This document shows positions 53,413 to 57,695 of a stretch of 64,000 nt of DNA, one piece after another. Each line of letters opens with the position of its first letter. The stretch's first letter is position 1. Under the pieces are notes generated by a model. That model was not told where the DNA came from and did no database searches. It saw only the letters and a list, made by a program, of their open reading frames with translations. A program made the translations under genes and the position numbers. This stretch comes from Nitrosomicrobium frigidum (SeqCode). GTDB taxonomy: Archaea; Thermoproteota; Nitrososphaeria; Nitrososphaerales; Nitrososphaeraceae. The stretch is from positions 1 to 64,000 of the forward strand of contig JAHEZK010000004.1 of the NCBI GenBank assembly GCA_023251115.1. The letters are read 5' to 3'.

Positions 53413-54486
53413 ATGATTCAATACTCATGCACTCATGGCGGGATTTACACTGTAAACCCAAGCTTAGTAAGAATTGATTTCAGTTCCAATATCAATCCAT
53501 TAGGGATATCGAGAAAAGTTTTGAATGTGTTGCGAAAAAAGCTTCCAAGAATTTCATCAATATACCCTGATAATGAACATACAGCCTTAAGAAAAAAAAT
53601 TGTCGACTATCTTGATGGCCAAATATCGCCGGAATCCATTAACATTGGAAATGGAGCTACCGAATTAATTTATAATTTCGTCAGAACTTTCGTCCGCAAT
53701 CAAGTTGTCATACAATCACCAACATTTTGCGAGTATGAGACAGCAGCACGGAAGGTTGGGGCCAAAATAAAACATGTCGCCATAAATACTCGGCAACTAG
53801 ACATTGAAAGGGTGTTGGAAAAATCAAAGAACTCTGATGCAATTTTTTTCTGCAATCCAAATAATCCAACAGGGCTTTTTTCCTATGGTATATTTGAAAA
53901 GTTAGTAGAAAAGATAGACAAATCCAAAATGATACTCATTGATGAAAGTTTTATTGAATTCGTTGATGAGGATAAACATCCAAGGAGTTTTATTGAAAAA
54001 GTTAATGAATTTCAAAATATAGTTGTCTTACGTTCATTGACAAAATCATTTGGGCTTGCGGGTTTGAGGCTGGGATATTGTGTCTCGCATCCTAACATTG
54101 CAAGCAGAATTTTGTGTAATAAGATAACCTGGAATGTGAACGGACTAGCGCAGTTAGCAGGCGTTACCGCTCTAGATAATCTTTCTCACCTAAGAGCTGC
54201 GAAAAAAATCATAAAGTCTGAACGAGAACTTATGTATTCTAGAATAAATAATAATCTGAGCTCCTTTTCCGCAAGTAAGTCAGATGTAAATTTCTATTTG
54301 ATAAAGTCGCATCATGTTAGCTCTAAGAAACTTGGAGATTTTTTGCTCGAAAAAAAGGGTATACTCGTTAGGGATTGCAGTAACTTCACGGGCTTGAAAG
54401 ATAAGAACATGTCCATTAGAGTCGCAGTAAAGACACACAGTGAAAATTTAGAACTATTTGATTCGTTGGAGTCGATTGACAAATGA
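53413..54486 (+). CDS. cobD: L-threonine-O-3-phosphate decarboxylase CobD-like aminotransferase
   Basis: PLP enzyme that supplies aminopropanol phosphate for the cobalamin nucleotide loop. HGG, DFSSNINPLG, GNGATELIY, NPNNPTG and the Schiff-base Lys in RSLTKSFGLAGLRLG match CobD and its HisC-like relatives. Position as first gene of the cobalamin operon argues for CobD over histidinol-phosphate aminotransferase. It starts at ATG and overlaps the next gene by 4 bp. Confidence 0.87.
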   Translation: MIQYSCTHGGIYTVNPSLVRIDFSSNINPLGISRKVLNVLRKKLPRISSIYPDNEHTALRKKIVDYLDGQISPESINIGNGATELIYNFVRTFVRNQVVIQSPTFCEYETAARKVGAKIKHVAINTRQLDIERVLEKSKNSDAIFFCNPNNPTGLFSYGIFEKLVEKIDKSKMILIDESFIEFVDEDKHPRSFIEKVNEFQNIVVLRSLTKSFGLAGLRLGYCVSHPNIASRILCNKITWNVNGLAQLAGVTALDNLSHLRAAKKIIKSERELMYSRINNNLSSFSASKSDVNFYLIKSHHVSSKKLGDFLLEKKGILVRDCSNFTGLKDKNMSIRVAVKTHSENLELFDSLESIDK

Positions 54487-55337
54487 CGGCAAAACTCCTA
54501 ATGATACAAGGGACTTCATCAGGGGCTGGAAAGAGTACATTGGTAATAGCCCTTTGCAGAATATTTTCAGACATGGGTTACAAGGTTTGCCCATTTAAGG
54601 CACAAAACATGACTTCCAATTTCTACGTGCTTAAAGAAAAAAAATCAATTAAATTAATGGCAAGAATACAGGCTGTTCAAGCAGTAGCTGCTAGAATCGA
54701 ACCTGATATTAGAATGAATCCAATACTTTTGAGACCGCTTGGTAATGAGGTTAGCGAAATAATTTTGGGAGGGCTGAAAAATTTGCGTTTGAGTGCAGAA
54801 CAATACTACAGTAGATTCGTTCTCCAAAAAGGATTTCCCAAAGTTCTGCAAGATTTAGAAAGTCTTCGGAAGGACAATGATTTAATTGTAATAGAGGGTG
54901 CAGGATCACCTGCTGAAATTAATTTATCACAATATGATATTGCAAACATGGTTCTTGCCGAAAAAACTAATTCAAATGTAATTTTGGTAGCAGATATTGA
55001 ACGTGGAGGATGCTTCGCTTCGATTGTAGGAACAATAAAGCTACTTCCATCTCGGCAAAGGAAGTATGTAAAGGGAGTGATAATTAACAAATTCTTGGGC
55101 CAAAAATCTATATTAACTAAAGGCATCATTTCAGTCGAAAAGATGACCAGAAAAAAAGTCTTGGGAGTAATTACAAAAACAGAGTTCGATATTCCAAATG
55201 AGGATTCATTGGATCAAAAGAGATCAAAGTCATCATATACCAAGAGATACCTTGAAGAGCAAATTGACTCCGTTGCGCATACCGTTAAAAATAACATCGA
55301 CATACAATATCTCCTAAATGTTTTAAAAATGAAATGA
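54483..55337 (+). CDS. cobQ: Cobyric acid synthase CobQ/CbiP, ATPase domain only
   Basis: Amidates cobyrinic acid a,c-diamide at four positions. The 284-residue protein carries the N-terminal ATP-binding half: P-loop GTSSGAGKST, PFKAQNMTSN, LEGAGSPAEINL-type signature and ERGGCFAS. Full CobQ is near 480 residues with a class I glutamine amidotransferase domain; here the protein ends at LLNVLKMK and the next gene begins 3 bp later. The glutaminase half is therefore missing from this locus. Direct use of free ammonia or a separate glutaminase is inference. ATG start overlaps cobD. Confidence 0.85.
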   Translation: MTAKLLMIQGTSSGAGKSTLVIALCRIFSDMGYKVCPFKAQNMTSNFYVLKEKKSIKLMARIQAVQAVAARIEPDIRMNPILLRPLGNEVSEIILGGLKNLRLSAEQYYSRFVLQKGFPKVLQDLESLRKDNDLIVIEGAGSPAEINLSQYDIANMVLAEKTNSNVILVADIERGGCFASIVGTIKLLPSRQRKYVKGVIINKFLGQKSILTKGIISVEKMTRKKVLGVITKTEFDIPNEDSLDQKRSKSSYTKRYLEEQIDSVAHTVKNNIDIQYLLNVLKMK

Positions 55338-55340
55338 CTA

Positions 55341-56312
55341 ATGGATTCTGAATTCATTATATTAACTCTTGCAGCTGGCATTGGCCTCTCATTCCTTTTT
55401 GTAGATCCTCCAAATAAGATTCATCCTGTTTCATGGTTTGGGAAAGTGGTAAGCTATTTTACACCCAAATTAAAAGACAATAACCCCAAACGAGAAAAAC
55501 TAAACGGGATAATTTTTTCATTAACGCTGGCAATTGGTATTTCTTTAGCTTCATATTATTTTTCAAGTATCATTTACAAATTATTTGGAATATTTACATT
55601 GATAATATTTTCGATATTGGTACTAAAGTTTACTATAGCGATATTGACTTTGGAAAGACATGTTCAAGCCATCATTTGTAAACTTGAAGAAAAAAATTTG
55701 GATGGGGCAAGAAAGAATCTTTCACTGATTGTAGGAAGGCAGACTGATACTCTTGATAGAGAACATATATTATCTGCCACGATAGAATCGATAGGTGAAA
55801 ACATGGTTGATGGAATAGGATCAGTATTATTTTATTACTCGTTATTCGGCCCTCCGGGAGCTATTGCTTTTAGGATTATCAATACTCTTGATTCCATGAT
55901 AGGTTATAGAGATAGTTATCACAAACATATGGGCTGGATGGCAGCGAAGCTTGATACTATTTCAAATTATCTGCCAGCTCGAATTTGCGCGTTATTGCTA
56001 ATTATTTCGTCCAAGATGGTTGGAGGTGACTGGAAAAACTCAATGATGATAATGCGGAAGGATCACAAAAATACACCCAGTGTTAATGGTGGATATCCAA
56101 TGTCGGCATTGGCTGGGGCCTTAAAGGTGAGGTTAGAAAAAGTTGGTTATTATGAATTAGGTATAAATATCGAGCCGCTTTCAATTGAAAAATGCAAAAA
56201 TGCTTTAACAATGGTAAAATTATCAGTTTTGTTGTTTTTTATTATGATATCAATGCCAATGGTAGTATTTCTATGCTATATCGGATGGTGGGACTTTTTG
56301 TATGGTTTTTGA
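55341..56312 (+). CDS. cbiB: Cobinamide-phosphate synthase CbiB
   Basis: Membrane enzyme that attaches aminopropanol (phosphate) to cobyric acid. The 323-residue protein has several hydrophobic helices, DPPNKIHPVSWFGKVV near the start, RQTDTLDREH, and SIGENMVDGIGS followed by NTLDSMIGY, all CbiB landmarks. It starts at ATG, three bases after the cobQ stop, and overlaps cobS by 11 bp. Confidence 0.93.
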   Translation: MDSEFIILTLAAGIGLSFLFVDPPNKIHPVSWFGKVVSYFTPKLKDNNPKREKLNGIIFSLTLAIGISLASYYFSSIIYKLFGIFTLIIFSILVLKFTIAILTLERHVQAIICKLEEKNLDGARKNLSLIVGRQTDTLDREHILSATIESIGENMVDGIGSVLFYYSLFGPPGAIAFRIINTLDSMIGYRDSYHKHMGWMAAKLDTISNYLPARICALLLIISSKMVGGDWKNSMMIMRKDHKNTPSVNGGYPMSALAGALKVRLEKVGYYELGINIEPLSIEKCKNALTMVKLSVLLFFIMISMPMVVFLCYIGWWDFLYGF

Positions 56313-57045
56313 GCCATTGATTTCTACTCTCTCTTTCTTGACAATTATTCCCACTTCAAAGTATGGCTTTGATTTACGAGTCATAGCAAGGAATATGTAT
56401 TTTTTTCCGATTTGCGGCGCAGTGATTGGATTGATCATAGGAATTATAGGATTCTATGCGTCAACATTCCTGCCAGAATATATTGCTAGTTTCATTATAT
56501 TGGTAACATTTGTTCTGATTACTGGCATTCATCACATTGATGGATTAGCTGATTTTTCTGATGGAGTTATGGTAAAAGGAGATAGAGATTCTAAGCGAAG
56601 AGCAATGTCTGATCCGGTAGTAGGGTCTGCAGGTGCTAGTGCTCTAATTATTAATTTCATAGGTTTATTTATTGCCATATTAAATTTTGAATCATCCACC
56701 AGATTATTCTATGCTATTATTGTATCGGAGGTAATAGCAAAATATGTTATGGTAATGCAAGCGTCCGTGGGTGAATCTGCATGGACTGGTTTTAGCTCCC
56801 CATTCACAATTGAAATGAAAAAATTATCCAAAATAATCACGTCAATCATTCTCACAGTAGTGTTGGTTTTCCTGTTACAAGGTATTGTAGGTCTACTAAC
56901 TTTGGGAATTGTAATAGTTATCGGTTTCATCATTTACTGTGTTGCTTACAGGAATTTTGGGGGAGTGAGTGGTGATGTCTTTGGCGCTTCCAATGAAATT
57001 TCCCGTTTAGCATCATTAATGATATTATCTACGATAATAATTTGA
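56302..57045 (+). CDS. cobS: Cobalamin-5'-phosphate synthase CobS
   Basis: Membrane enzyme joining adenosyl-GDP-cobinamide and alpha-ribazole (phosphate). The 247-residue protein shows LSFLTIIPTSK at the N-terminus, the metal-binding HHIDGLADFSDGVM motif and GVSGDVFGASNE near the C-terminus, all CobS features. Six or so membrane segments fit the family. It starts at ATG within cbiB and overlaps the cobY start. Confidence 0.94.
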   Translation: MVFEPLISTLSFLTIIPTSKYGFDLRVIARNMYFFPICGAVIGLIIGIIGFYASTFLPEYIASFIILVTFVLITGIHHIDGLADFSDGVMVKGDRDSKRRAMSDPVVGSAGASALIINFIGLFIAILNFESSTRLFYAIIVSEVIAKYVMVMQASVGESAWTGFSSPFTIEMKKLSKIITSIILTVVLVFLLQGIVGLLTLGIVIVIGFIIYCVAYRNFGGVSGDVFGASNEISRLASLMILSTIII

Positions 57046-57695
57046 AAATGACACGAGACATGTTGGCTTTGATCATGTGCGGTGGTAAAGGTGAGAGGAT
57101 AAAAGATTTTTGTTCGGATAAAGCTATGCTGAAGTTTAATAATATGCCATTAATTGAACACGTTCTGATATCACTGAAAACTTCTAAGCAGTTTGACCGA
57201 ATCTACGCTGCCGCAAGTCGCAATAGCAAAGCTACTTTGGAATTCTTGAAAAATCACCCTTTCTATCACAGCGGTACACTTGAAATCATGGAGACAACTG
57301 GTTTGAATTATTCAACGGATCTCACTAATGCATTGGAAAAATTGAAACCTTCAATTGTTTTAGTCTTACCTTCCGATATCCCATTGGTAACTCCTCAATT
57401 GATTAAGAGAATAGTTTCTAAATGGAAAGGAGACAGACAGTGTATTTCAATAGTAATGGACAAGCAATACACTGCAAATCTTGGCTTGGTCCCTAGTTTT
57501 AAAGTAAAACAAGGGAACAAAGAATATTTTCACTCTGGGGTAACAATTTTTGATACATCCACAATAAAAACTGGGGAAAGAATTAAGGAATATTATTCAA
57601 GACTTAACGACGAAAGAATCGCATTTAATATAAATACAAAAGAAGATTTTTTCCTACTTGAGAATTCAATCAAGCGTTTCGATGATTTCCCCTAG
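57042..57695 (+). CDS. cobY: GTP:adenosylcobinamide-phosphate guanylyltransferase CobY
   Basis: Archaeal nucleotidyltransferase that activates cobinamide phosphate with GTP. The 217-residue protein has MCGGKGERIKDFCSDKAM as nucleotide motif, then LVLPSDIPLV for the metal-binding aspartate region. This replaces bacterial CobU. ATG 57048 is likelier than the overlapping TTG 57042. Its 3' end overlaps that of the convergent S27e gene by 30 bp. Confidence 0.9.
   Translation: MKMTRDMLALIMCGGKGERIKDFCSDKAMLKFNNMPLIEHVLISLKTSKQFDRIYAAASRNSKATLEFLKNHPFYHSGTLEIMETTGLNYSTDLTNALEKLKPSIVLVLPSDIPLVTPQLIKRIVSKWKGDRQCISIVMDKQYTANLGLVPSFKVKQGNKEYFHSGVTIFDTSTIKTGERIKEYYSRLNDERIAFNINTKEDFFLLENSIKRFDDFP

Follow-up and report, generated by a model that had tools for sequence, protein, structure and literature searches.

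Short cobQ gene and its locus

The window, which is the whole 64,000-nucleotide stretch of Nitrosomicrobium frigidum DNA analysed here, contains a cobQ gene with an ATG start and a TGA stop within a cluster of B12 genes (Table 1). The next gene, cbiB, begins at 55341; as stated in the initial annotation, it follows cobQ after 3 bp, and the rest of the cobalamin operon is intact. The fifth gene of the cluster (57042-57695) has a TTG start and only a distant likeness to CobY, so that its identity as a guanylyltransferase is tentative.

Table 1. Positions of the genes and CobQ features of the locus, numbered on the window
Feature	Position	Strand	Basis
cobD-like threonine-phosphate decarboxylase / HisC-type aminotransferase	53413..54486	+	TIGR01140, 240.6 bits, below cut-off of 290.55; 4 bp overlap with cobQ
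cobQ, glutaminase-less cobyric acid synthase, 284 aa	54483..55337	+	N-terminal half only of PRK00784 and TIGR00313; no GATase_3; AlphaFold pLDDT 88.5
Synthetase (ATP-binding, BioD-like) domain, residues 1-239	54483..55199	+	Pfam CbiA/AAA_26; nearest solved fold, dethiobiotin synthetase 1dbs
P-loop QGTSSGAGKS	54507..54536	+	sequence reading; G10, T11, S13, G16, and K17 invariant in 28 CobQ
Residue 45 (Ser in the window)	54615..54617	+	Leu or Asn in 68/68 full-length CobQ; Ser in 43/47 AOA
Residue 173 (Glu in the window)	54999..55001	+	Asp in 64/68 full-length CobQ; Glu in 39/47 AOA
Junction, site of the ~200-aa glutaminase domain in full-length CobQ; variable low-confidence linker	55200..55241	+	alignment; pLDDT <50 at residues 242-248; linker length differs between genera
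Retained CobQ C-terminal tail, helices 254-271 and 274-280	55242..55322	+	tail HMM; same two helices ending the full-length model
cbiB, adenosylcobinamide-phosphate synthase	55341..56312	+	TIGR00380 over cut-off
cobS, adenosylcobinamide-GDP ribazoletransferase	56302..57045	+	TIGR00317 over cut-off
cobY-like nucleotidyltransferase	57042..57695	+	best match NF045495, 83.7 bits, below cut-off of 250

The encoded protein matched two NCBIfam cobyric acid synthase profiles in their N-terminal halves only, namely PRK00784 (E, 4e-92; 309 bits; cut-off, 273) at positions 2-245 of 480 and TIGR00313 at positions 1-248 of 477. For lack of the second half, the TIGR00313 score falls just under the cut-off (283.5 against 309.9). 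A Pfam scan detected CbiA/AAA_26, which is the nucleotide-binding domain, but no GATase_3, and no glutaminase was found in any frame around the cobQ–cbiB junction; the absence of the glutaminase half, the main claim of the initial annotation, was thereby borne out. The synthetase residues invariant across 28 homologues, including those of the P-loop, are kept.

The source genome is a draft (1.8 Mb in 137 contigs, 91% complete), in which a full-length or any other second CobQ was sought and none found. The sole strong GATase_3 in this genome belongs to CbiA, where it forms the C-terminal half, the protein being interrupted by the ends of contigs C50 and C70; there is no stand-alone GATase_3 besides it; weaker GATase hits comprise PdxT, PurQ, HisH, and one GMP-synthase-like GATase (named by sequence reading). 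Although the draft state would accord with a decayed or artefactual cobQ (an assembly error or pseudogene), cobyric acid being made otherwise or scavenged, this explanation is hardly credible and is refuted by conservation and selection: the same short frame occurs in ~150 relatives, complete single-contig genomes included, the dN/dS of the short cobQ is ~0.1 (~0.06–0.12 within the genus), the operon is intact, and cultures of ammonia-oxidizing archaea (AOA) need no added vitamins (PMC4303638). A frameshift in the assembly or a contig-end artefact is likewise ruled out by these relatives and by the lack of a glutaminase frame at the junction. The short cobQ, already judged unlikely to be dead in the initial annotation, is alive and maintained under strong purifying selection.

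Full-length CobQ is composed of the synthetase domain, the glutaminase domain, and a two-helix tail, in this order. When the window CobQ was aligned to full-length CobQ, the synthetase was matched, the glutaminase was skipped, and the match resumed in the tail, to which the last ~30 residues correspond. With a threshold of E<0.01, a hidden Markov model of the tail, built from full-length enzymes, recognized 35 of the 45 short forms; the highest score among 900 shuffled control sequences was 9.2 bits. In the AlphaFold model of the short CobQ (mean pLDDT, 88.5), residues 254-271 and 274-280 form two helices, and the model of a full-length homologue ends with the same helix pair. Judged from the alignment and the models, the glutaminase domain is excised from the middle of the gene rather than truncated from its end, a simple 3' truncation being ruled out by the retained tail. 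Thus, the earlier description of the protein as ending after the ATP-binding domain holds in that no glutaminase follows, but fails for the last ~30 residues. Some AOA genera (L055, L056, and L057) carry long linkers at the former glutaminase site, with ~71–97 residues, counting the tail, downstream of the EDS motif, compared with 41 in the window.

Distribution and evolutionary origin of the short form

The host of the window is an ammonia oxidizer by archaeal amoA, the marker used here, in line with its initial designation. The short form, whose occurrence in relatives had been marked for checking, is widespread: all CobQ found in the host's own family are short (61 relatives surveyed), and the same holds for families f9 and f2 (genus g13) of this order; the three AOA families with short frames are f1, f2 with genus g13, and f9. 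A survey of 400 genomes of the order agrees with this, the AOA frames being 258–342 aa among the matches listed. Other families of the order have full-length CobQ (494–534 aa). A working CobQ glutaminase was found in none of the 25 amoA-positive genomes checked, of which 22 lack the domain and three have a degenerate one, and an intact one in all 11 amoA-negative CobQ carriers checked by sequence; two further genomes (G045 and G047) carry no CobQ and no amoA. Of the 58 similar loci retrieved from organisms outside the order, nearly all of them bacterial, 57 encode a full-length CobQ with an intact glutaminase. The sole exception is a short CobQ in a Deferribacteraceae MAG (L084:1882-2679), which is located in its own B12 cluster (cobS–cobD–cobQ–cbiB) and apparently represents an independent bacterial loss of the glutaminase. 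No report of a missing CobQ glutaminase domain was found in the open-access literature. As side observations, CobQ is split over two frames in two AOA (G228:C1:1142283-1143117, with an in-frame TAA, and G223:C3:41759-42576), which may reflect sequencing errors or decay, and CobQ is also encoded on records of 1.5–3 kb labelled Listeria phage (OR849169, OR847441, OR849467, and OR847639), which are probably host DNA.

Degenerate CobQ glutaminases, fossil INTERMEDIATES of the domain, were found in deep-branching relatives, namely in amoA-positive family f3 and in genus g41 of family f2. The CobQ of family f3 (G038 and G054; 494–495 aa) keeps the domain and its Cys but has neither His (one position reads E or R instead of H, the other YG instead of HG, i.e., His to Tyr), and that of genus g41 (G079, also amoA-positive; 456 aa) has an eroded domain with Cys replaced by Asp and no His. 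All 68 full-length homologues have the glutaminase Cys and the second His, and 67 of them have the first His as well; Cys94 and His189 constitute the catalytic pair of Staphylococcus aureus GatD, a homologue of the CobQ glutaminase domain (PMC5871853). The two f3 proteins are 57% identical in the glutaminase versus 81% in the synthetase, and intact pairs with 79–83% synthetase identity are 67–74% identical in the glutaminase; by these identities, the dead f3 domain has diverged faster than intact ones.

The AOA CobQ, whether short or with a dead domain, form one clade (bootstrap, 100; SH-aLRT, 98). In the best trees the dead-domain forms fall among the short forms, which implies several excisions after one inactivation, and a single excision is also compatible with the gene tree (AU p, 0.444). 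There was one inactivated lineage, and because genera g41 and g13 of the same family f2 differ, there were probably at least two excisions. As read from these extant forms, the route in the AOA lineage is inactivation of the glutaminase site, erosion of the domain, and then excision of the whole domain, leaving the synthetase core and tail.

Two synthetase positions adjoining invariant motifs, residues 45 (in QNMxL) and 173 (in the context DIDRGG), vary in identity depending on glutaminase state. At residue 45, the 68 full-length CobQ have either Leu (61) or Asn (seven); in AOA this residue is never Leu, and Ser45 is already present in the dead-domain AOA forms as in the domain-less ones. The AOA counts at both positions are explained by shared ancestry, leaving L084 as the only independent data point; by direct reading it has QNMSS and DIS at these positions (the gapped alignment leaves position 45 blank), and these same-position changes suggest an adaptation to glutaminase-free catalysis. 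They also weigh against genome economy or relaxed regulation as the background of the domain loss, with no relation to the cell's ammonia physiology (although ammonia could still be the donor), an explanation that we regard as fairly unlikely. This explanation would agree with CbiA having kept its glutaminase domain and with the single phylogenetic origin of the inactivation: the association of the CobQ change with ammonia oxidation is a single ancestral event, and the correlation with amoA is therefore not independent evidence.

Nitrogen donor of the short CobQ

Ammonia for the short CobQ could be supplied by a separate glutaminase acting in trans. An AOA-specific stand-alone GATase_3 was not found in the 38 genomes searched, which gave only CbiA and ordinary weak hits. 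A survey of class I GATases in five AOA and two non-AOA identified TrpG, CarA, GuaA, PyrG, HisH, PdxT, and PurQ types (assigned by sequence reading) and an extra enzyme of ~181–198 aa common to the five AOA. As for the free-standing class I glutaminase envisaged in the initial annotation, no partner dedicated to CobQ emerged from the GATase_3 and class I surveys, and an orphan class I GATase with Cys and HPE is present in nearly all AOA but not in the window's genome. This orphan, encoded beside a gene for an UPF0182-like membrane protein, is the best candidate for a supplier in trans: the five sequences aligned all retain the HPE motif and the catalytic Cys, and its occurrence extends to the AOA with a dead CobQ domain. 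However, it is of the GuaA type and not GATase_3, is also present in amoA-negative G056 (full-length CobQ), G047, and G060 (no CobQ in the latter two), was not found in G004 (95% complete) as in the window's genome, and has neighbours encoding a PriS-like protein, a 959-aa membrane protein, and a C39-like/TPR protein, with no B12 genes. We consider such a supply in trans unlikely; the case for the UPF0182-linked GATase as a dedicated partner is weakened by its presence with full CobQ or without CobQ and by its non-B12 neighbours. Another candidate, the GMP-synthase-like GATase of 226–254 aa, was rejected, since it also occurs in G049, which is amoA-negative, and was not seen in G121, a small AOA genome that is complete. 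In AOA, the gene of the orphan class I GATase directly follows that of the UPF0182-like membrane protein (~950 aa) and is usually followed by that of a C39-like/TPR protein (L169:4054-4647, L170:3973-4536, L171:3920-4462, L172:3523-4065, and L173:3804-4361).

The glutaminase of CbiA, the amidotransferase acting one step before CobQ, or CbiA as a whole might also serve CobQ, since CbiA acts upstream in the same pathway and, in 24 of the 25 AOA checked, still has its glutaminase Cys and His. This is quite unlikely: cbiA and cobQ are apart in the genomes, ammonia is normally channelled from glutaminase to synthetase inside one enzyme or complex (PMC6085368), and one AOA (G246) combines a short CobQ with a CbiA whose Cys is replaced by Gly, which argues, from this one genome, that the CbiA glutaminase is not an obligatory donor for CobQ. 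The G246 CbiA (L193, G246:C1:1453200-1455300) has AEGGG for AECGG with the codon GGC, possibly a second amidotransferase losing its glutaminase function, in a single genome.

With a separate glutaminase weakened, direct use of ammonium by the short CobQ, one of the options named in the initial annotation, is the best-supported reading. Lacking the glutaminase half, the short CobQ cannot take nitrogen directly from glutamine, and it is likely, from the sequences and from analogy, to be a functional ammonia-dependent cobyric acid synthase using free ammonia directly. Free NH3/NH4+ would reach the synthetase site directly, as in single-domain NAD synthetase, and the enzyme would use ATP and free cytoplasmic ammonia to amidate the four side chains that are still unamidated in adenosylcobyrinic acid a,c-diamide; the high ammonium turnover of ammonia oxidizers may have made the glutaminase dispensable. 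CobQ/CbiA-type enzymes can use ammonia at high concentration in vitro. Counting against the ammonia reading, many AOA inhabit environments with very low ambient ammonia.

In other organisms, CobQ/CbiP adds the four amides from glutamine (PMC7242693), and ammonia is the only donor used by single-domain NAD synthetases (PMC3376133); in the homologous MurT/GatD system, MurT takes ammonia directly at pH 8.5, yet requires the presence of its GatD subunit (PMC6085368), which counts against the ammonia reading. Cultures of Nitrosopumilus maritimus and Nitrososphaera viennensis grow without vitamin supplementation, metE is reported absent, and the anaerobic B12 pathway of AOA genomes is otherwise complete (PMC4303638); cobalamin has been detected in N. 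maritimus cultures (PMC8281238). Because AOA cultures grow without added vitamins, the glutaminase-less CobQ must work, the simplest donor being free ammonia. AOA also retain GuaA, CarA, PyrG, and other class I glutaminases, which, together with the kept CbiA, means that free ammonia is not making the use of glutamine generally dispensable; plentiful ammonium should have cost CbiA its glutaminase too, and that it is mostly kept is odd. We hold it somewhat probable that AOA make cobalamin via a strictly ammonia-dependent CobQ, with a synthetase site that was adjusted by two changes (Leu45 to Ser and Asp173 to Glu) once the glutaminase had died, so that four of the six corrin amides would come straight from the ammonium pool that fuels the cell.

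Comparison with known enzymes and implications

The short CobQ shares with CobQ/CbiP (TIGR00313 and PRK00784) the homology over the whole synthetase, the P-loop and invariant residues, the C-terminal tail, and the operon context, whereas the ~200-residue GATase_3 between synthetase and tail is absent and residues 45 and 173 are changed; amidation of the same four side chains of the a,c-diamide is predicted for it, with which the operon context and the vitamin-free growth of AOA are consistent. Single-domain NAD synthetase (NadE; PMC3376133) similarly is a synthetase half without glutaminase and uses ammonia, as predicted for the short CobQ, but is an unrelated protein, and its single-domain form is proposed to be ancestral, whereas AOA CobQ became glutaminase-free through loss, and dead intermediates survive today. 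In MurT/GatD, synthetase and glutaminase are likewise separate proteins, and no solved structure is closer to the CobQ glutaminase domain than GatD; MurT still needs GatD, whereas no dedicated partner of AOA CobQ emerged from the GATase surveys. Dethiobiotin synthetase BioD (1dbs), the closest solved fold to the model, is also a glutaminase-free ATP-dependent ligase of related fold, differing in its substrate and sharing only 16% identity.

CobQ has been treated as a two-domain glutamine amidotransferase, and the B12 pathways of AOA were scored complete using a full-protein CobQ profile (PMC4303638), whereas an entire, globally abundant AOA clade runs this step without the glutaminase, its living relatives displaying the route through inactivated site, eroded domain, and excision. 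The finding raises a testable question, namely what makes an amidotransferase keep its glutaminase, given that CbiA of the same cell and pathway has kept one. The short CobQ, if ammonia-dependent, would be a naturally occurring minimal form of cobyric acid synthase, of use in structural studies and in cell-free work on B12. As AOA are proposed to be major B12 producers, their B12 output would in that case be tied directly to cytoplasmic ammonium.
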